DNA of 20,577 nucleotides. It comes from a virus. The notes under the pieces were generated by a model that was not told the origin of the DNA, searched no databases, and worked only from the letters and a program-made list of their open reading frames with translations. The position numbers and the translations under genes were made by a program. Shown here piece after piece: positions 1 through 15,186 of the stretch (position 1 is its first letter; each line of letters starts with the position of its first letter). The stretch lies in IMG/VR virus record IMGVR_UViG_3300036045_000069, positions 1 through 20,577 of that record; one strand, given 5' to 3'.

Positions 1-675
1 GCCCACGCAGCCGGAGATCAGGGGCAGGCGCAGCTCGGGCGGCGCCACGCCCAGCACGTCGGAGGCGAAGGACCAGCTACGCGGCGTGGGGAACTCCCGC
101 TCGTTCCGCTCCGGCTTGAAGTCGTGCAGGAGCGCCGGCTTGTACTGCATCAGGGAGATGACGGCCGGGTGGACGCCCGCCGCCTGCGCCCACGCCGTCC
201 AGTCGGCGAGGCTCACCTCCAGGTCCAGGTGGATGAAGCGGTTGAGGAGGGGCGTGATCAGCCGCCGCGCGCCCGCCTGGTCCTCCTGCCGGTTGCCGCA
301 CGCGACCACCATCGCCCCCTCCGGCAGGCGGTAGCTGCCCACCTTGCGGTCGAGCGTCAGCTGCATCGCCGCCGCCTGGACAAGCGGCGCCGCTTGCGGC
401 AGCTCCTCCAGGGCGATGATGCCACGCCACTCGGGGTCGTCGGGGAACAGGGTGTTGACCCACTCGACCGTCTTCGCCTTCTGGTCCACCACCGGGAACT
501 TCAGGTCGCCCGGCTCGTGGTACACCAGCCGCACGTCGAGCACGCCCACGCCCAGCTCGCCCGCCGCCTGCTTCACCACGTCGCTCTTGCCCACCCCCGG
601 CGGCCCCCACAAGGCGAGGGGGCGCCTGGTCGGGTACAGCGCCTTGATGGCTCCCTTCACGTCGCTCGGCGTCAT
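1..675 (-). CDS. MoxR-like AAA+ ATPase (partial, C-terminus beyond left edge)
   Basis: The ATG is at 675 and the frame stays open for 225 codons to the window edge. Walker A is GPPGVGKS at residues 24-31, a Walker B-like IIALEEL lies at 86-92 and a sensor-1 Asn (ACGNR, N129) follows. The next segment (RRLITPLLNRFIHLDLEV) matches the NRF region of MoxR/YehL-type ATPases. MoxR proteins are known as chaperone-like AAA+ ATPases that usually work with a von Willebrand factor A protein encoded next door; here that partner would lie beyond position 1 (inference). Walker B has Glu where the first acidic residue is usually Asp. The gene has its own sigma70-like promoter (731-759) and a perfect hairpin in its leader, so it can be expressed apart from the upstream small-gene operon. 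The AAA+ assignment is firm; the MoxR subfamily is likely. Confidence 0.9.
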   Translation of the reverse strand, partial: MTPSDVKGAIKALYPTRRPLALWGPPGVGKSDVVKQAAGELGVGVLDVRLVYHEPGDLKFPVVDQKAKTVEWVNTLFPDDPEWRGIIALEELPQAAPLVQAAAMQLTLDRKVGSYRLPEGAMVVACGNRQEDQAGARRLITPLLNRFIHLDLEVSLADWTAWAQAAGVHPAVISLMQYKPALLHDFKPERNEREFPTPRSWSFASDVLGVAPPELRLPLISGCVG

Positions 676-699
676 GGCTCGCTTTCTCGTGAGATGATG

Positions 700-726
700 G
701 AGGCGGGGCAACAATTGCCCCGCCTC
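700..726. promoter_or_regulatory. Perfect 12-bp stem hairpin in leader of the AAA+ gene
   Basis: GAGGCGGGGCAA (700-711), loop CAA, TTGCCCCGCCTC (715-726) is a perfect inverted repeat. No T-tract follows in either direction, so a classical terminator is not shown. The predicted start of the leftward transcript (about 724) falls at its edge, so the mRNA would begin with this hairpin. It could be an operator overlapping +1, a stabilising 5' stem-loop, or a factor-dependent end for the operon ending at 830. Confidence 0.6.
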
Positions 727-730
727 GTTA

Positions 731-759
731 ACTTTACAACACGTTTCGGAAATCGTCAA
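731..759 (-). promoter_or_regulatory. Sigma70-like promoter for the AAA+ gene
   Basis: On the minus strand TTGACG (759-754) and TAAAGT (736-731) are separated by exactly 17 bp. The segment is clearly less GC-rich than its surroundings and about 55 bp upstream of the ATG at 675. A 17-mer shared with the 88-bp repeats (757-773) overlaps the -35 box. No other promoter is visible between 830 and 675. Confidence 0.6.
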
Positions 760-829
760 CTCAATTGCAATTCACTGGACCAGGGTGCCCATGTGGACCC
801 CGGCCGATCGCGTGCGGACAACTACGAAT

Positions 830-1165
830 TCACCGATCACGTGTCACCTCCAGCTTGTCAATGACCATGTCGAACTGCCGTAATACGGCGGCGTGGCCCC
901 AGCACACGTCGTCGTTCATGTTGATCACCTCCTGGCGCGGGTCGTCGCAATCAATGCCGATTAGGAGGCGGCATGCGGGGGGGACCAACTGGTCGAACAC
1001 CGACGCCGCCTTGTAAATGGCGCCGACGGCACACCACTTGCAGGCAACCACGTCATAAACGCCCACCTCGTACCCCTCCTTGTTCCTGGCGTAGGCGCCC
1101 GTCGTCCACCGCGTCGGGCTGGCGATCAGCTGCCGCGCCCCCTTCAGAACGTCAAGCGGCGTCAC
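830..1165 (-). CDS. DUF6197-type small protein, paralog 1
   Basis: Last member of a leftward array of related genes. The 111-aa product has the array's three landmarks: an N-terminal LKGARQLIASPTRW segment, a WCAVGA motif (Cys about residue 45), and a C-terminal NDD...H element followed by an amphipathic helix. This pattern matches what I know of DUF6197, a family of small phage and actinobacterial proteins of unknown function. Two GTG starts are possible. The one at 1171 directly abuts the GGGAGG ribosome-binding site, so the one at 1165, with 5-nt spacing, is preferred; no ATG is available. The gene overlaps the end of the upstream paralog by 14 nt, implying translational coupling. Function is not known. 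The conserved Cys, Asn-Asp and His might form an active or metal site (inference). Confidence 0.8.
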   Translation of the reverse strand: MTPLDVLKGARQLIASPTRWTTGAYARNKEGYEVGVYDVVACKWCAVGAIYKAASVFDQLVPPACRLLIGIDCDDPRQEVINMNDDVCWGHAAVLRQFDMVIDKLEVTRDR

Positions 1166-1508
1166 CGCCACCTCCCTCTTTGGCGATGGCCCCGTCGAGC
1201 ACGGCCAGAACGTCTTCGTGCGTCGTGCGCGGCCAGTCGTTGAAGCTGACTATGTGCATCTCGTGCCTTACATACGGCCGGCGCAGGATGGCCCGTCGCA
1301 CCGCCGAAGTCACCGAAATAGGCAGCGCGTCGTCTGACCGCATTCCGAGCACCCGGAGCAGGGCGCCGTACAGGCAGAACCGGCAGGCTTCCCTGCTGTG
1401 CAAAGGCACCTGATGGCCGAATCGGTCTGTAGACATGTCACCCCTTGCCCACGCCTTGGGCTGCTCGATCAGGGCGCGGGCCTGCTTCAACACGTCAACC
1501 ACCCTCAT
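1152..1508 (-). CDS. DUF6197-type small protein, paralog 2
   Basis: The 118-aa product opens MRVVDVLKQARALIEQP and carries FCLYGA in place of WCxxGA. It ends with FNDWPRTTHEDVLAVLDGAI, the best copy in this window of the family's C-terminal ND...H-x-D-V-L element. The ATG at 1508 is chosen because AAGGAGG lies 8 nt upstream and because it overlaps the stop of the upstream paralog as ATGA. An in-frame ATG further upstream would run through the neighbouring gene and add an Arg-rich, shadow-like tail. The Gly/Asp/Ala-rich C-terminus is variable among the paralogs. Family assignment rests on motif spacing shared with its neighbours; the biochemical role is unknown. Confidence 0.82.
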   Translation of the reverse strand: MRVVDVLKQARALIEQPKAWARGDMSTDRFGHQVPLHSREACRFCLYGALLRVLGMRSDDALPISVTSAVRRAILRRPYVRHEMHIVSFNDWPRTTHEDVLAVLDGAIAKEGGGGDAA

Positions 1509-1840
1509 GCCCCCGCCTCCTTCCTGGCTATCACGCGGTCGAAGATCGCGAGGACATCGCCATGACACGTCGCCTCGCTGTCGTTGACAGCAACGATGGA
1601 TCGCAGGTCGCGCGGCAAACCCCGACACTCCTCATTCAGCAGGCAGATAGCCTCCATGCACCCCAACGTGCGCCCCAACGCCGCCCTCTCGCACGCGCCG
1701 GAAGCACACCACATCGCCGCGTCGCCAGCGAGCGGCGGCACGGTCGCGCCGTGTGCGTCCCTCGCCAAAGCGAACCGCGTCCAGCTGCCGGGCGGCGTGA
1801 TCAGCTGCCGGGCTTTCTTCAAGATCTCGAACCATGTCAT
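1505..1840 (-). CDS. DUF6197-type small protein, paralog 3
   Basis: The 111-aa product begins MTWFEILKKARQLITPP and has the WxRFALARD segment typical of the family. It contains MWCASGAC with the conserved Cys and Gly-Ala, and VNDSEATCHGDVLAIFDRVIA near the C-terminus. It overlaps both neighbours by ATGA (1505-1508 and 1837-1840), so it sits in a fully coupled run of genes. A purine-rich AGGAGGGGAAAGG tract precedes the ATG. Apart from these landmarks it shares little sequence with paralogs 1 and 2, so the duplications look old rather than recent. Function unknown. Confidence 0.82.
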   Translation of the reverse strand: MTWFEILKKARQLITPPGSWTRFALARDAHGATVPPLAGDAAMWCASGACERAALGRTLGCMEAICLLNEECRGLPRDLRSIVAVNDSEATCHGDVLAIFDRVIARKEAGA

Positions 1841-2094
1841 GTGCCTTTCCCCTCCTCTTTGGCGATGGCCCGCCTGATCAGGGCCGTCACGTCCGCGTTG
1901 GTCGCCTTCGCCTCGAACTCCGAGAGCGACTGGTACCTGCCCGGCATCTCCTTGTAGAGCGGGTAGAGGAAGCGCGTCGGCATCATGTTCCATTGCCCCA
2001 CGCCGGCCGCCTGCATGGCCAGGCCGCGCAGGTCAGACCTGCCGCTCGCCGTCGCGGCCAGCATCGTCGCGTGCAGGAACTCAAGAGTCGTCAT
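1837..2094 (-). CDS. Divergent array member lacking the Cys-Gly-Ala core
   Basis: The 85-aa product lies inside the DUF6197-type array, with ATGA overlaps on both sides. It is about 25 aa shorter than its neighbours and lacks both the [WF]CxxGA motif and the Asn-Asp pair. What it keeps is the N-terminal MTTLEFLHATM helix and a C-terminus (NADVTALIRRAIAKEEGKGT) very like that of paralog 2 (DVLAVLDGAIAKEGGGG). I read it as a shortened or decayed paralog, or a partner subunit that kept only the helical ends. It could instead be an unrelated small gene with a chance C-terminal match. The intact frame and kept overlaps argue against simple decay. Confidence 0.72.
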   Translation of the reverse strand: MTTLEFLHATMLAATASGRSDLRGLAMQAAGVGQWNMMPTRFLYPLYKEMPGRYQSLSEFEAKATNADVTALIRRAIAKEEGKGT

Positions 2095-2420
2095 AGCGCG
2101 GCCCTCCCGATGGCGTCCTCGAACAGGGCCATGATCTCACCGTGCTCGCGCGACGGGCCGTCGTTGTAGCTGCTGATCGTGTCCCGCCTGTTGGGCAAGG
2201 CCGCCTTGAGCATGGCGATCGCGGCCTGCCGCACCCATTCCGGCTCGTCCTGCCCCTGGCGCAGCACGGCCCCGATGGGGCAGAAGCTCACCGCCGCCGC
2301 CATGTCGTAGCTCGTCGGCTTGCCCTTGATGTCACGGCACATCGCACCCCGCGACCACTTGGCCGGGCCGTCCATCAGAAGCTTGGCCCGGCGCAGCAGG
2401 CCACTCACGCGGCTTGACAT
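2091..2420 (-). CDS. DUF6197-type small protein, paralog 4
   Basis: The 109-aa product starts MSSRVSGLLRRAKLLMDGPA and has WSRGAMCRDIKG, then SFCPIGAV with the conserved Cys and Gly-Ala, and YNDGPSREHGEIMALFEDAI near the end. The ATG at 2420 follows GGGGGAGGGG and overlaps the upstream gene's 3' end by 16 nt. Its own stop overlaps the next start as ATGA. Length and motif spacing agree with paralogs 1 to 3. Soluble, no signal peptide or membrane segment. Function unknown. Confidence 0.82.
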   Translation of the reverse strand: MSSRVSGLLRRAKLLMDGPAKWSRGAMCRDIKGKPTSYDMAAAVSFCPIGAVLRQGQDEPEWVRQAAIAMLKAALPNRRDTISSYNDGPSREHGEIMALFEDAIGRAAL

Positions 2421-3010
2421 GACCCCTCCCCCAGTCGGATCGCCTGGCTGAAAAGGGTCATGATCAGCTCGTGGCTGCACCACTCCTCGTCGTTGAAGCG
2501 CGGCACGCTCTTGTAGCCGAACGGCAAGGCCGCGTGGAGCAGCCGGTCGGCCTCGTCGATCTCGTCGTAGCTAGCGTGTACCGCCAGCCCGCACTTGGCC
2601 AAAGCCCCGACCGGACACCACCGCACGCACGCCGGGTCGTCCGGTCGGAGGTACACCTTCCTCTCCGTCTTCTCGTCGATTCGGAACATCGGCCTGTTCG
2701 GCGCCAGCTTGGCCCACCTCATCGGGTCGCTCAGCAGATCCCGGGCCTCCTTGAGCACCCTCACCGCCCCCCTCTTCAGACCGCTCATCGTCGTCCCCCG
2801 TAAGATGATCTCCACCGAGCGCAACGCGCACCTGACCACCACTTCAACGACGCGGGCCGCCACGCCGGGCGCGATGCCCAGCATGGCGGCCACGTCCCGC
2901 ACGGCCAGCGCCCTCAAGGCGTCTGACGGCGGCGGGGCGGCCGTTCCGGGCCGACTCCGCCCCGCCGCCGGCGGCTTTTGCCTCGCCGCCCACTTGTGCG
3001 TCGCCGCCAT
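2405..3010 (-). CDS. DUF6197-type protein with helix-turn-helix-like N-terminal extension, paralog 5
   Basis: The frame gives 201 aa from the ATG at 3010. Residues 75-201 are a DUF6197-type unit: VLKEARDLLSDPMRW, RWCPVGAL, FNDEEWCSHELIMTLFSQAI. Residues 1-74 are an extra part: a basic Pro/Ala-rich tail and then LAVRDVAAMLGIAPGVAARV, which resembles a helix-turn-helix. There is no stop between the parts. An internal ATG at 2788 (MSGLKRG) would give a 127-aa protein like its siblings, behind only a weak GGGGGA. The start at 3010 is preferred because it follows the microprotein stop by one base, keeping operon packing, though its own ribosome-binding site is also weak. Possibly a DNA-binding fusion; the start is the main uncertainty. 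Confidence 0.7.
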   Translation of the reverse strand: MAATHKWAARQKPPAAGRSRPGTAAPPPSDALRALAVRDVAAMLGIAPGVAARVVEVVVRCALRSVEIILRGTTMSGLKRGAVRVLKEARDLLSDPMRWAKLAPNRPMFRIDEKTERKVYLRPDDPACVRWCPVGALAKCGLAVHASYDEIDEADRLLHAALPFGYKSVPRFNDEEWCSHELIMTLFSQAIRLGEGSCQAA

Positions 3011-3011
3011 C

Positions 3012-3071
3012 TTAATCCCCGGAAGCCAGGTGTAAGAACAGCACCACCGCCATCAGCTCGATCCAGCACAT
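3012..3071 (-). CDS. 19-aa membrane microprotein, TGATG-coupled
   Basis: A 19-codon frame (MCWIELMAVVLFLHLASGD) starts at an ATG that shares its A with the TGA stop of the upstream 77-aa gene. AAGGAG lies at ideal spacing 8 nt before that ATG. Its TAA ends one base before the next gene's ATG at 3010. The middle (LMAVVLFLHLA) is strongly hydrophobic, long enough for a short membrane insertion. Too small for homology-based calling; the support is the ribosome-binding site, overlap and exact fit into the gap. It could instead be a leader or coupling peptide whose translation matters more than its product. Confidence 0.5.
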   Translation of the reverse strand: MCWIELMAVVLFLHLASGD

Positions 3072-3304
3072 CACGGCAACTCCTTGCTGCCCACCAGCGT
3101 CAGCGTCACCCCCACCTGCACCGGCACCTTCACGCCCCCCACCTCTAACGTCACCTTGCCGTTGGCGTACCACCCCAGCGACCCCGTGCTGAACTCTCGC
3201 GCCTCCGCCACCACCGCCTTCCCGTCGATCGTCACCAGGACGTCCTTCGCCTCCGCCCGGAACTTCGCCCGGTCAACCGGGCACACCGTCTTCGCAGCAG
3301 CCAT
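3071..3304 (-). CDS. Small conserved-looking protein (77 aa), first gene of the leftward operon
   Basis: The ATG at 3304 is preceded by AAGGGGGG at 8-nt spacing. The product starts MAAAKTVCPVDRAKFRAEAK and has a predicted beta-rich core with SLGWYANGKVTLEVGGVKV and VQVGVTLTLVGSKEL. No signal peptide or membrane helix is seen. I have an impression of similar GWYANGKV...VGSK proteins in planctomycetes, but this is recollection only. It is the first gene after the duplicated promoters in the 88-bp repeats and is coupled to the microprotein by TGATG. Function unknown. Confidence 0.78.
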   Translation of the reverse strand: MAAAKTVCPVDRAKFRAEAKDVLVTIDGKAVVAEAREFSTGSLGWYANGKVTLEVGGVKVPVQVGVTLTLVGSKELP

Positions 3305-3361
3305 CTCTCGAACCCCCCTTCGTGAAAAGTTTCCGTCACGCCGCCATCACGGCTTGAATGA

Positions 3362-3390
3362 AATATGCAACTCAATCACAATTCTGTCAA
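3362..3390 (-). promoter_or_regulatory. Sigma70-like promoter P1 of the leftward operon (repeat copy 1)
   Basis: TTGACA (3390-3385), a 17-bp spacer, and CATATT (3367-3362) on the minus strand: a perfect -35 and a four-of-six -10. The start would be near 3355, giving a leader of about 50 nt before the ATG at 3304. That leader contains the GCCGTGATGGCGGCGTGACGG imperfect inverted repeat. Confidence 0.7.
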
Positions 3391-3449
3391 GGACATCGAA
3401 CCCCCCTTCGTGAAAAGTTTCCGTCACGCCGCCATCACGGCTTGAATGG

Positions 3450-3478
3450 AATATGCAACTCAATCACAATTCTGTCAA
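3450..3478 (-). promoter_or_regulatory. Sigma70-like promoter P2 of the leftward operon (repeat copy 2)
   Basis: The same TTGACA-N17-CATATT arrangement occurs at 3478-3450 in the second repeat copy, 88 bp upstream of P1. On the opposite strand of this copy TTGAAT (3442-3447) and CACAAT (3465-3470), also 17 bp apart, could serve the rightward gene at 3515. The two directions overlap and so would compete. Confidence 0.6.
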
Positions 3479-3514
3479 GGACATATCGCATCCGTTTCAA
3501 GTTGCGAGTGAAAA

Positions 3515-4102
3515 ATGGACCCGACCCTCAAGGCGATGCTCTATGAGGCGATGGCCGCTCACGGACGGGCGGCGGCCAACGCCTCGCGGTTCCGGGCGTG
3601 GCACCGCACGACACGGCTGGTCATGGCCGACAGGCTGCTCGACGACGGCGACGACGACAGGGCCGACCAGCTGCGCCGACTGCCCGGACTGGTGCCGCTC
3701 CTGTGCGTGCCGTTCACGCCGGGCCGGGTGATCTACAACGTGAGACCCCACGTCATGCCGGTCACCAAAGCCCGGCCCTGGCTACGCCTCCTGGACGACG
3801 ACTTCGCCCAAGCCGGCATCGTCCGGTGCTTGGCGTACAGGGAGTTGTTATTCCAGCTGCCCACCCCCATCGGCGACGCCGGCCAGCCTTACGTCACCAC
3901 CGGCCCGCTCTGGCTCGAAGTGATGCCCAAGGTGTGGGGCGTGGCCGTCACCATCGACCTCCACCCCGCCGACCCAGACGAGCAGACCACCTGGCACATC
4001 AACGTCGAAGCCGTTCTCGCGCAGAGACGCCGCGAACTCGCGGCCATGTTCGGGGAGTACGCCGATGCTCAGAAAGCTATGGAGGTGGCTCATGGGGCCT
4101 GA
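3515..4102 (+). CDS. Hypothetical protein, first gene of a rightward three-gene operon
   Basis: The 195-aa product begins MDPTLKAMLYEAMAAHG. Residues about 25-60 (FRAWHRTTRLVMADRLLDDGDDDRADQLRRLP) recall the ADWLEEQGDPRAELIRLQ pattern of TIGR02996 repeat-companion domains of planctomycetes, a weak resemblance. The rest is mixed alpha/beta with no catalytic motif that I recognise. There is no signal peptide or membrane helix. The ribosome-binding site before the ATG at 3515 is poor (GAGTG), so translation may be modest. It lies about 30 bp after the 88-bp repeats and its 3' end overlaps the next gene by 11 nt. Function unknown. Confidence 0.75.
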   Translation: MDPTLKAMLYEAMAAHGRAAANASRFRAWHRTTRLVMADRLLDDGDDDRADQLRRLPGLVPLLCVPFTPGRVIYNVRPHVMPVTKARPWLRLLDDDFAQAGIVRCLAYRELLFQLPTPIGDAGQPYVTTGPLWLEVMPKVWGVAVTIDLHPADPDEQTTWHINVEAVLAQRRRELAAMFGEYADAQKAMEVAHGA

Positions 4103-4376
4103 CACCTGCATGTGTATCGGCTGCGCCGTCCGGCTGAAAGGGGGCCGCCTCATGTGCCCCCTGCACTGGCGCGACGTGCCGCCAGGCATCAAGGATCGGA
4201 TTGTCGCGGCCTACGGGCTGGACGGAGACGAGTTCTCCCACCAGCTCCTCCGGGCCGTGAACGAGATCGCCATGCAGGAGGGCCTCATGTCCCTCGCCGA
4301 CGCCATCGCCAGCGAGGAGGAGAGCCTCCGCAAGATGGGGCGCGCTCGTCGCCAACGTAAAAGGAGAGACCTTTGA
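4092..4376 (+). CDS. Small Cys-rich zinc-finger-like phage protein
   Basis: The 94-aa product has Cys at residues 6, 8, 11 and 22 and His at 25 (CMCIGC, then MCPLHWRDVPPGIKDRIVAAY). Cys-x2-Cys, ten residues, Cys-x2-His plus the HW...VP...R..V segment is common in small phage proteins thought to bind one zinc ion; their role is unknown. The ATG at 4092 is preferred over one at 4065 because GGAGGTGG stands just before it. It overlaps the upstream gene by 11 nt. The acidic middle (IASEEESLRK) and basic end (RARRQRKRRD) suggest nucleic-acid contact (inference). It overlaps the next start as TGATG. Confidence 0.82.
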   Translation: MGPDTCMCIGCAVRLKGGRLMCPLHWRDVPPGIKDRIVAAYGLDGDEFSHQLLRAVNEIAMQEGLMSLADAIASEEESLRKMGRARRQRKRRDL

Positions 4377-5095
4377 TGGCCACATGGACCAAGAAGGACG
4401 AGAACTTCGTCCGTGACAACTACAAGACGATGCCAATCGCCCAGCTCTGCCTCTTGCTCGGCCGCACGCCGATCCAAGTCCGCAACAAGGCGAATTGCAT
4501 CGGCGTGCGCCGCCGCAACATGCTGCGCTATCTGGAGAAGGACATCCTTTACCTCTACAGCCGCCAGATGTGCGACTCCGCCATAGCCCGAGAGCTTGGC
4601 CTGGACCAGGGCGGCGTCTCACGCTGGCTACGCAAAAGAGGCTTGCCCCCTCACGGGTCGTGGGGGCCGGACCAAGACATCGCCAAATGGCGCCGGGCCT
4701 GCAACATCAGAGCACGCCAGATCGGCGCCAGCTCCATCCAGGAGCTGGCCCTGTGTGCCAAGCGCTTGCGATATCTCTCCTTGATGCCCGGCTGCACCAC
4801 CAAAACGCAGGTGGCCGTCATGAAGGCCATCAAGGCCGCGAACGCCGACCCCCTTACAGCCCCCCAGATCGCCGCCGCCGCCAACGTCCATGAATGGACG
4901 GCCAGGCGCGCCATCTACGAACTCGTCAAAGCCGGCGTCCTGCTGCGCTCGTCCGACAAGGTCCCGCGCTACTACCCCTCCACTCGCAAGGGTAAGGAAA
5001 GAAGGCACATCCCTTACCCCTCCGACGAACAGCTGCGCCGTCTGGCCGGCCATTTCCGCGACGAGTGGGTTGAATCACAACGCGTGCGGACCTAA
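4376..5095 (+). CDS. Triple helix-turn-helix DNA-binding protein
   Basis: The 239-aa product contains three putative DNA-binding units: residues 3-44 are Myb/SANT-like (WTKKDENFVRDNY, LLGRTPIQVRNKA); 53-90 resemble a homeodomain-like resolvase or transposase helix-turn-helix (CDSAIARELGLDQGGVSRWL); 158-201 look like a winged helix (TAPQIAAAANVHEWTARRAI followed by LVKAGVLLRSS). Residues 100-150 are a basic linker. There is no catalytic recombinase or nuclease motif, so a transcription regulator or DNA-organising protein is likely. The ATG at 4376 shares its A with the preceding stop and follows AAAGGAGAG; a TTG one codon earlier is less likely. It is the only clear regulator in the window, making it a candidate ligand for the 88-bp repeats or the palindrome (inference). 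Confidence 0.85.
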   Translation: MATWTKKDENFVRDNYKTMPIAQLCLLLGRTPIQVRNKANCIGVRRRNMLRYLEKDILYLYSRQMCDSAIARELGLDQGGVSRWLRKRGLPPHGSWGPDQDIAKWRRACNIRARQIGASSIQELALCAKRLRYLSLMPGCTTKTQVAVMKAIKAANADPLTAPQIAAAANVHEWTARRAIYELVKAGVLLRSSDKVPRYYPSTRKGKERRHIPYPSDEQLRRLAGHFRDEWVESQRVRT

Positions 5096-7825: not shown

Positions 7826-8485
7826 TCAAGGGGCGGGGGCGAGCCTCATGAGGAGTGTGTTCCAGATGACAGTCCCGGTCCAATTGCCTTCGGTCTCGAT
7901 CCAGTCGACGTCGCCGGAGAACTTGAGAGGCGTGCGGCCTTCCTTGTTGACGGAGACGACGAACTTGGCGGGCTGGGTGTTGATTGTGGTGGCCCAGTCA
8001 CAGACGCCGTCGGGGCCGGTCTCCAGGAGGCGGTTCTCGACGGGTGGGCCGTCGTTGTGCAGCTGGAGGTGGATGACGGCCCCTTGGATGGGCTGTTGGG
8101 CTTCTTGCTTTTGGACGTACAGGTAGAGGTGGTAGGTGGACCCGGTGGGCGGGTCGGCGGGCTTGCGCTGGAGCTTGCCGACCTCTTCAGGCGTGGGGGT
8201 GAGGTGTACGGTGTAGCGGCAGACGGCCCCGACCCACTCCGCGCCCTCCTGGTCCCACTCGACGACCCCCTTGAAGGTACAAGGCTCGTACCCGGCCTTG
8301 CAGACGGTGATCGTGTAGTCGCGTGGCCTGGTGTTGATGGTGGAGTAGTGATGTAGGCAGCCGCCCTCCCCTGTCTGGAAGAGGCGGTCCTCCACCGCTT
8401 CTAGCTTGAGGTGGACGACTGCTCCTACCAGGGGCTGCCCCTGGTAGTCTGCGACCCTCATGTTCAGGTGGTAGGTGTTCGCCAT
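7826..8485 (-). CDS. Tandem two-domain beta-sandwich protein (carboxypeptidase-regulatory/Ig-like)
   Basis: The 219-aa product is an internal duplication. Unit 1 (about 4-97) and unit 2 (about 117-215) both open with TYHL, continue with GAVVHLKL or GAVIHLQL, then EDRLFQTG or ENRLLETG, then STINTRP or TTINTQP, and end with a W-rich strand (VEWDQEGAEWVGAV; VDWIETEGNWTGTV). The layout, with a plug-like GxP turn and TINT strand, resembles CarboxypepD_reg/Ig-like folds used by phage structural proteins for surface binding. The linker is Pro-rich (RKPADPPTGS). There is no signal peptide. A GAGG lies upstream of the ATG at 8485. It is transcribed against the late genes. A virion or adhesion role is inferred; the repeat is directly visible. 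Confidence 0.85.
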   Translation of the reverse strand: MANTYHLNMRVADYQGQPLVGAVVHLKLEAVEDRLFQTGEGGCLHHYSTINTRPRDYTITVCKAGYEPCTFKGVVEWDQEGAEWVGAVCRYTVHLTPTPEEVGKLQRKPADPPTGSTYHLYLYVQKQEAQQPIQGAVIHLQLHNDGPPVENRLLETGPDGVCDWATTINTQPAKFVVSVNKEGRTPLKFSGDVDWIETEGNWTGTVIWNTLLMRLAPAP

Positions 8486-12485: not shown

Positions 12486-12528
12486 GTGATGTGTGGCAAA
12501 GACTTCCTTCCTCTCCAGGGGAAAGTGG

Positions 12529-13350
12529 ATGCCGAAGCACAGCGTGATGATCTGCCGGTTCCCGTACGGGGGCTACGAGCTGTCGGAGTGCGTGGACTGG
12601 CTGGTGGAGACGGTCATCGAGATGAAGGGTGACGCCAGGGTGGGCGACATCTTCCGCAAGAGGATCGCGGACACCCCCATCTCGATGACGAGGAACGAGG
12701 CGTGCTTGGTGGCGAGGGAGCTGGGCGCCGACTTCCTGCTGATGATCGACGACGACGTTGCGCCGGACCACCACGTGAAGGAGGCCGGCTCGCGGCCGTT
12801 CTGGCGTAGCAGCTTCGAGTTCCTCCTGGCGCACAAGGGGCCGGGCGTGGTGGCGGCGCCTTATTGCGGGCCGCCTCCTCATGAGAACATTTACGTTTTC
12901 CGGTGGCGCAACAAGGCGAGCGGCAACCCGGCCGACCACCAGGTGCTGGACCTGAAGCTGGACCAGTACACGCGTGAGGAGGCGGCGGAGCGGACGGGGA
13001 TCGAGGAGGTGGCGGCCTTGCCGACGGGCCTCCTCTTGATGAGCACGGCGGTGCTGGACAGGCTGCCGCCCCCCTGGTTCGAGTACGAGTACGCGGACCT
13101 GTACAAGGCGCGGAAGGTGACTACGGAGGACGTGTACTTCACGCGCAACCTCTCTATGTCGGGCGTGCCCGTCTACTGCAACTGGGACGCCTGGGCGGCG
13201 CACGACAAGAGGAAGCTGGTGGGGAGGCCCCGGCCGGCGACGTTCGATTTGGTGCGCGACGAGTACAGGAAGGCGTTCGAGATCCGCGCGCGTGGTGAGT
13301 CGCCCCGGATGATGGACGTGCCGCCGGGCGGCGTCATCGTGGGGACGTGA
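12529..13350 (+). CDS. GT-A fold glycosyltransferase-like protein
   Basis: The 273-aa product carries a typical GT-A signature: SMTRNEACLVARELGADFLL followed by MIDDDVAPD, with the metal-binding DDD at 74-76. A later strand has VVAAPYCGPP, then ALPTGLLLMSTAVLDRL and a TTEDVYFTRNL acidic acceptor-side motif ending at CNWDAWAAH. These features match nucleotide-sugar transferases of the GT2 type. The ATG at 12529 is preferred, behind GGGGAAAGTGG; a GTG at 12493 would add 12 residues. No membrane helix is present. Its place among capsid genes suggests it modifies a virion protein (inference), though the substrate is not shown. Confidence 0.75.
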   Translation: MPKHSVMICRFPYGGYELSECVDWLVETVIEMKGDARVGDIFRKRIADTPISMTRNEACLVARELGADFLLMIDDDVAPDHHVKEAGSRPFWRSSFEFLLAHKGPGVVAAPYCGPPPHENIYVFRWRNKASGNPADHQVLDLKLDQYTREEAAERTGIEEVAALPTGLLLMSTAVLDRLPPPWFEYEYADLYKARKVTTEDVYFTRNLSMSGVPVYCNWDAWAAHDKRKLVGRPRPATFDLVRDEYRKAFEIRARGESPRMMDVPPGGVIVGT

Positions 13351-14349: not shown

Positions 14350-15186
14350 ATGGTCGAGCGATTCAAGAACGTCTTCACGGCGGACGACGGGTATGTCTAC
14401 AAGCTGGGGAACCGCCTGCCGGAGCTGGGGAAGCTGAAGGCCGAGTGGCCGCTCTACGGCTCGGTGCCGAGCGCGCCGTTGATCCCGCGAGGCGACTGGC
14501 CGAAGTACGCGGCGAAGGCGTTCACGCCGAACCCTCACCTGCCGTCAGTGCACGACCAGAACGGCTACGGCATGTGTAATGCCAGCGCCACCTGCGCGGC
14601 GATGGAGTACTGCCGTGCGGTGCAGGGGCTGAAGTTCGTCAAGCTGTCGGCCGGGCACCTGTACGGCCGGATCAACGGCGGGCGCGACCAGGGGTCGCTG
14701 CTGGAGGACGGGCTGGAGGCGGCGATGAAGGTTGGCGTGGCCACCGTCGGCGCGTGCCCGTACCTGCAATGGCGGTCCAGGCCGCCTGGCAGCGACGAGC
14801 AGGCCAGGCACTTCCGGGTGCTGGAGTCCTTCCTGTGCCCGACGTTCGACCACGTCTTCAGCGCGGTGTGCATGGGCTTCGGGATGATCACCGGCATCCG
14901 GTGGTACGACAACTTCACCCCGAACGAGCAGGGCTGGCTGCCGCGTGCGGGGCGTGGCCGTTGGGGCGGGCACGCCATCTTCGGGCACACGCCCGTCGTG
15001 GACGAGTCGGACCCGGGCCACTTCGGCGTCGAGCACACCAACAGCTGGACGGAGCGGTACGGCAAGCAGGGCCGCTTCGTCATCGGCGAGGAGCACTACT
15101 CCGGGCCGGTGGGCGGGTGGTGGGCGGTGCGTGCGGTGACGGACGAGGGCGGCGGCGAGCTGCCGGAGCCTAAGGACTTGGAGTGA
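14350..15186 (+). CDS. Papain-like (C1A) cysteine protease
   Basis: The 278-aa product has the papain-family catalytic layout: SVHDQNGYGMCNASATCAAM with oxyanion Gln about 70 and nucleophile Cys76, GGHAIFGHTPV with His208, and VEHTNSWTERYGKQGRFVIG with Asn231. The order and spacing match C1A peptidases, as does the middle LEDGLEAAMKVGVATVGACP segment. No signal peptide or pro-region of usual length is evident, so activity may be regulated differently. It lies between an exported Pro-linker protein and an exported Cys-rich protein, next to a holin-like gene; roles in lysis, entry or virion maturation are all possible. GGGGG lies before the ATG at 14350. Confidence 0.88.
   Translation: MVERFKNVFTADDGYVYKLGNRLPELGKLKAEWPLYGSVPSAPLIPRGDWPKYAAKAFTPNPHLPSVHDQNGYGMCNASATCAAMEYCRAVQGLKFVKLSAGHLYGRINGGRDQGSLLEDGLEAAMKVGVATVGACPYLQWRSRPPGSDEQARHFRVLESFLCPTFDHVFSAVCMGFGMITGIRWYDNFTPNEQGWLPRAGRGRWGGHAIFGHTPVVDESDPGHFGVEHTNSWTERYGKQGRFVIGEEHYSGPVGGWWAVRAVTDEGGGELPEPKDLE

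Follow-up and report, generated by a model that had tools for sequence, protein, structure and literature searches.

The protein family DUF6197 (Pfam PF19698, curated cut-off 24.6 bits; PHROG phrog_762) is known by name only. No function is recorded for it in either collection, and a literature search returned no paper on PF19698 and, on DUF6197, an announcement only. To our knowledge, no DUF6197 protein has a known target, phenotype or structure. DUF6197 duplicates in the Gordonia A15 phages are already in print, namely gp47 and gp72 of Nebulosus and gp48 and gp75 of Waits (PMC10586128). Here we describe a DUF6197 gene array in the 20,577-base virus record IMGVR_UViG_3300036045_000069 (positions 1-20,577, below called the window), whose source is a tailed phage according to profile matches to the terminase and major capsid proteins. 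Five of six products of the array match PF19698, and the window differs from what these entries describe by its six-gene coupled run. The array is an instance of a recurrent, unstudied pattern.

Layout and membership of the array

The array lies at the left end of the window, in a leftward unit that runs from a 77-aa gene through g1-g6 to a gene for a MoxR-like AAA ATPase (Table 1). A sequence-only reading had noticed six consecutive leftward genes with overlapping ends; the open reading frames are present at the coordinates it gave, and all five junctions overlap, three of them by ATGA (2091/2094, 1837/1840 and 1505/1508) and the remaining two by 16 and 14 nt. GC3 is 0.79-0.93 in all six genes, which is the phage's own coding signature.

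Table 1. Features of the leftward unit and its flanks in the window
Feature	Coordinates	Strand	Remarks
MoxR-like AAA ATPase gene	1..759	-	Runs off contig; Pfam AAA 22.0 bits, cut-off 21.2
Third copy of 25-nt motif GAATTGnnATTGAGTTGnnnATTTC	749..773	-	Between array and AAA gene
g6, DUF6197 protein, 111 aa	830..1165	-	GTG start; PF19698 41.5 bits; 14-nt overlap with g5
g5, DUF6197 protein, 118 aa	1152..1508	-	PF19698 71.7 bits; ATGA overlap with g4
g4, DUF6197 protein, 111 aa	1505..1840	-	PF19698 49.0 bits; ATGA overlap with g3
g3, probable shrunken DUF6197 paralog, 85 aa	1837..2094	-	ATGA overlap with g2
g2, DUF6197 protein, 109 aa	2091..2420	-	PF19698 50.0 bits; 16-nt overlap with g1
g1, DUF6197 protein, 127 aa	2405..2788	-	From ATG 2788; PF19698 31.2 bits
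First gene of the array's leftward unit, 77 aa, function unassigned	3071..3304	-	Conserved in G039 and G043
Two tandem 88-nt near-identical copies	3308..3483	-	99% identical, one mismatch; each with TTGACA-17-CATATT facing the operon

The start of g1 has two readings. An open frame extends as far as ATG 3010 (201 aa), and this long reading adds 74 residues of unclear nature. Since the DUF6197 domain occupies residues 84-192 of the long reading and begins only near 2761, and an internal ATG stands at 2788, residues 1-74 may not belong to the protein. ATG 2788 is well placed, comes with GGGGGA, a stretch like a ribosome-binding site, and is as good a start as ATG 3010. The core and the extension have the same codon-position bias (GC3 of 0.90 and 0.91, respectively), so that GC does not separate the two starts.

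Five of the six products score above the PF19698 cut-off (31.2-71.7 bits) with nearly the full profile matched, and a profile search of the raw DNA of the window returns exactly the same five genes, g1, g2, g4, g5 and g6. The identification of five DUF6197-type paralogs is thus confirmed, and so is their strong divergence, the mutual identity of the five being 22-37%. The [WF]CxxGA, ND and H pattern proposed as common to them is present in all five, and W, C, GA, ND and H are kept in each. In an alignment of 47 DUF6197 proteins, W20, C45 and N90 are invariant (100%), G48, A49 and D91 stand at 98%, I108 at 96%, and L7, H97 and D105 at 94%; several members have Tyr, Leu or another residue at the H position. 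Residues 50-88 form a hypervariable segment in the same alignment, with 30-56 residues between C45 and N90.

Structure prediction drew on window and IMG/VR loci. The AlphaFold2 model of g5, made with the alignment of 47 DUF6197 proteins, is confident and mostly helical (mean pLDDT 94.9, pTM 0.88); C45 stands immediately before helix 46-54, and H97 opens helix 97-113. Foldseek found no counterpart of the model among solved structures (best E 3.8, probability 0.02), and a profile search of PDB sequences found no relative. The best match in the latter search, a nuclear receptor at E 0.009, covers part of the profile only and was taken as chance. DUF6197, as represented by this model, is without a solved structural counterpart visible to Foldseek or to the PDB profile search. 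In a viral structure library, the g5 model has twelve matches at E <=0.001 (E down to 2.9e-6, TM 0.65-0.83), including proteins of Motura and Lullwater, both of which carry DUF6197. Thus g5, the sole window gene modelled, shares a fold with other members of the family. The outcome that the sequence-only reading had named as contradicting it, unrelated families or different folds, was not found for the five DUF6197 genes; g3 is doubtful in this respect, and the evidence on fold concerns g5 only.

The sixth gene had been described as core-less, and it is: g3 has neither the WC..GA core nor the ND and H positions. Profile searches gave no Pfam, PHROGs or NCBIfam family for it, and there were zero matches among 50,697 phage records. 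With a family HMM built in the absence of the window proteins, g3 reaches 8.7 bits, a value attained by none of 2000 shuffles. The score is carried by its C-terminal end, and this part of the protein is more like the end of g5 than any of 1000 shuffles. The 3' ends of g3 and g5 are 75% identical in DNA over 51 nt, the first 18 of which are identical, and the local DNA score is 41, whereas 200 codon shuffles reach at most 29. Although the profiles fail, this 3' end common to g5 at the DNA level suggests a remnant: judging by these resemblances, g3 is probably a shrunken DUF6197 paralog or else a small gene that has acquired the g5 end. Its coding signature is fully kept (GC3 0.92).

Genomic slot and recurrence of the arrays

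The capsid protein of the window is common to twelve IMG/VR records (54-79% identity), several of which are short fragments. A whole-record search found a DUF6197 profile match in only one of them, G039, and none in the other eleven. In G039, a D12-class DNA adenine methyltransferase separates two DUF6197 genes, each of which exceeds the Pfam cut-off, and the three are bordered by a homolog of the 77-aa gene on one side and the AAA gene on the other (locus L061, 2098-4697); in G043, the slot holds other small genes and no DUF6197. The 77-aa gene homologs head the corresponding region in both relatives (51-58% identity), and the AAA gene forms the other edge of this variable slot, the same flank being found in G039. 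An AAA gene and DUF6197 as a functional pair were considered and rejected: DUF6197 occurs in 0 of 50 loci with AAA relatives, in the stretches examined, and the linkage is therefore lineage-specific.

Elsewhere, by raw count among 150 large neighbouring ORFs, the most frequent recognisable products are DNA methyltransferases (5), followed by DnaB helicase, RecT and NAMPT. NAMPT genes occur near DUF6197 triplets in two unrelated phages (loci L007, 7339-10109, and L014, 1830-5460), the former also with a NadM-family adenylyltransferase/ADP-ribose pyrophosphatase and the latter with nucleotidyltransferases. Two different queries found no plasmid copies of DUF6197. Bacterial genomes of one phylum (399, drawn around a Shinella centre) gave a clear full-length match in Shinella and one other; hits near 25 bits, located in bacterial frames of 973 aa, overlap an apparent zinc-protease gene or the frame antisense to it and were put down to chance. 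Given the patchy presence among capsid relatives, the contents of the slot, the neighbours and the rarity in bacteria, the array belongs with the accessory, non-structural genes.

Promoter-like sites are concentrated in this part of the window (3 observed in positions 1-4600 against 0.4 expected). The 25-nt motif has three matches in the window, in the 88-nt copies and at 749-773, and nowhere else, compared with 0 in 100 shuffles. A stretch similar to the 88-nt copies also precedes the 77-aa gene homolog in G043 (L062, near 15010), as judged by eye. The array may be expressed early. Across the operon promoter region from the array sits a rightward gene (4373-5095) whose product has weak helix-turn-helix matches and is similar to D5-like transcriptional regulators (phrog_323).

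Several other genes of the window deserve mention. Located between the genes for capsid and terminase, 14350-15186 encodes a product similar to papain-family cysteine peptidases (16.9 bits, below the Pfam cut-off of 20.7). Downstream of the capsid gene, the product of 12493-13350 is weakly glycosyltransferase-like (TAGT), also below cut-off, and homologs of it occur in 12 of 12 capsid relatives at 41-53% identity. The protein encoded at 7826-8485 has two halves that look similar by eye, and is weakly like carboxypeptidase regulatory domains, again below cut-off.

A single-protein search of IMG/VR with g5 gave no close relatives; with the family alignment, 29 IMG/VR records were found. That DUF6197 is usually a single small gene, as stated in the sequence-only reading, is only partly right, agreeing with 16 of these records; at least two copies (maximum 5) occur in the other 13 and in 9 of 15 cultured phages, often as coupled genes, in samples gathered by similarity and non-random, which give no population frequency. 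Two of the 13 multi-copy records are Motura and pf16, and L031 and L032 are near-duplicates. Among the cultured phages, there are six copies in WXIN, five in Achromobacter phage Motura, three each in Synechococcus phage BUCT-ZZ01, RHph_I1_18, Waits, Myxococcus phage Mx1, Milchi and Astolliot, two in Pseudomonas phage pf16, and one each in BUCT555, Lullwater, BDU-MI-1, LeBron, Baka and Hammer. The search for similar arrays in other phages, proposed at the outset, was rewarded by coupled runs in several of them and by the two-copy slot of G039. The five window genes together with g3 make the longest strictly contiguous DUF6197 run in the sample; the window array is longer, yet the same kind of thing as the other DUF6197 arrays.

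The relationships were traced on a 63-protein tree, the resolution of which is limited by long branches and the small number of columns. The arrays of Motura, BUCT-ZZ01, Mx1 and G039 each form a single clade with starred support, the G039 pair joining two long branches; at least four separate local expansions thus took place. The five window genes are scattered on the tree with weak support, and g6 groups with the BUCT-ZZ01 triplet (support 97/79). Since the five are not a clade, a local origin of the window array by one duplication series is not supported, while a single origin is compatible with the AU test (p 0.232); the array may still have grown locally. DNA matches between g4-g3 and g6-g5, at an offset of 675-679 nt, suggested that two genes had been duplicated as a block, a reading then set aside, as the pair g2-g5 too exceeds shuffles.

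Candidate functions of the family

We propose, tentatively, that the array may be a diversified set of small proteins binding targets in the host or in its anti-phage defence. One small helical domain would have been duplicated to give an accessory non-structural phage operon, the copies of which then diversified, keeping the scaffold and the near-invariant W20, C45, G48-A49, N90-D91 and H97, whereas the stretch leading from the CxxGA helix to the ND motif was free to change. The small proteins would be co-produced from one coupled message, and the individual members would bind and neutralise different host or defence components. Of the two functions suggested in the sequence-only reading, variants against diversified targets fits better than specialised parts of one complex, because of the independent expansions, the hypervariable segment and the patchy presence. 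A wider claim, that DUF6197 as a whole is a structurally orphan counter-defence or host-takeover family, in which the scaffold is fixed, the recognition segment is hypervariable and the genes have repeatedly been amplified into coupled arrays, is doubtful; if true, one phage would carry several specificities at once.

Published overexpression data bear on the target-binding proposal. Gp41 of LeBron, a DUF6197 protein (56.1 bits), is missing from the list of toxic genes in a genome-wide screen in M. smegmatis, where "non-toxic" may also mean not expressed (PMC13148394); the gene numbering of the LeBron record and of that paper agrees by protein length for genes 36 and 47. This would speak against a general host-killing role, and would suit a protein directed at defence and not at growth. 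A second screen used Hammer and Baka, with Hammer 103 and Baka 17 and 224 given as toxic in its main table (PMC7474061). Both phages carry DUF6197 genes, that of Hammer being number 69. The PADLOC profiles, a library of defence systems and not of counter-defence, gave no match to the six array genes.

The strict conservation of Cys, Asn-Asp and His fits an enzyme or a ligand site at least as well, and this counts against the target-binding proposal. The main rival is accordingly a small thiol-dependent enzyme or ligand-binding domain with C45, H97 and N90/D91 as the candidate site, the variable segment setting substrate specificity. It would account for the retention of these residues at about 30% identity between members, for the position of C45 and H97 at helix starts in the g5 model, and for the NAD-salvage gene NAMPT adjoining DUF6197 genes in two cultured phages. 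However, the His is swapped for other residues in several members, and solved proteins show no structural relative; we regard this rival as unlikely.

Less probable still is that the paralogs are specialised subunits of one hetero-oligomer, their order fixed by translational coupling. Every operon junction overlaps, but gene overlap is commonplace in phages. Natural two-domain fusions in Gordonia phages are suggestive, as the predicted structure of a fusion has a continuous inter-domain helix (pTM 0.78) that would allow domain pairing; the second domain of this model, however, lacks alignment depth. Moreover, the copy number varies from 1 to 6, and the single-copy records imply that the domain can work alone. 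An accessory replication or regulatory factor acting for the phage itself, with copies kept for dosage or by drift, seems improbable to a similar degree: in Gordonia and Mycobacterium phages copies adjoin genes for DNA polymerase, DnaB helicase, a recombination directionality factor and HTH proteins, but DUF6197 is patchy even among capsid relatives, and such strong divergence is unlike amplification for dosage. Finally, transient amplification in a variable slot, leaving extra copies without specialised function and g3 in decay, would explain the loss of the core and conserved residues from g3 but is very unlikely, since the retention of W, C, GA, ND and H by five full-length copies at 63-78% divergence suggests purifying selection on each, and the coding signature of g3 is intact.

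The proposal of diversified target binders remains our tentative choice, and a counter-defence role may go with it. A widespread phage family of unassigned function shows repeated independent tandem expansion, few strict residues and a hypervariable segment, and this pattern of expansion and conservation marks it out as a promising candidate for host interaction through diversified members. Concrete material is offered by g1-g6, the Motura and Mx1 arrays, LeBron gp41, and residues W20, C45, N90, D91 and H97; the overexpression result published for one member, which came out non-toxic, narrows the search for function.

Comparison with other DUF6197 arrays

A close parallel to the window is found in Motura, which has coupled small DUF6197 genes with 4-nt overlaps between neighbours, four of them clustered and one elsewhere. 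Like the window run with g3, the cluster is broken once by a small gene, in Motura a non-DUF6197 one. We rejected it as a counterpart of g3, as its product begins like a signal peptide and no resemblance to g3 could be seen. In contrast to the window genes, the four array genes of Motura form one clade. BUCT-ZZ01 and Mx1 resemble the window in having adjacent DUF6197 genes, three each, but there NAMPT and nucleotidyltransferase genes lie nearby, whereas the window shows none. The Gordonia A15 phages likewise have more than one copy per genome and two DUF6197 domains in tandem; unlike the window, however, a fusion within one gene and a spread over two loci take the place of the coupled array, and their sequences are very distant.
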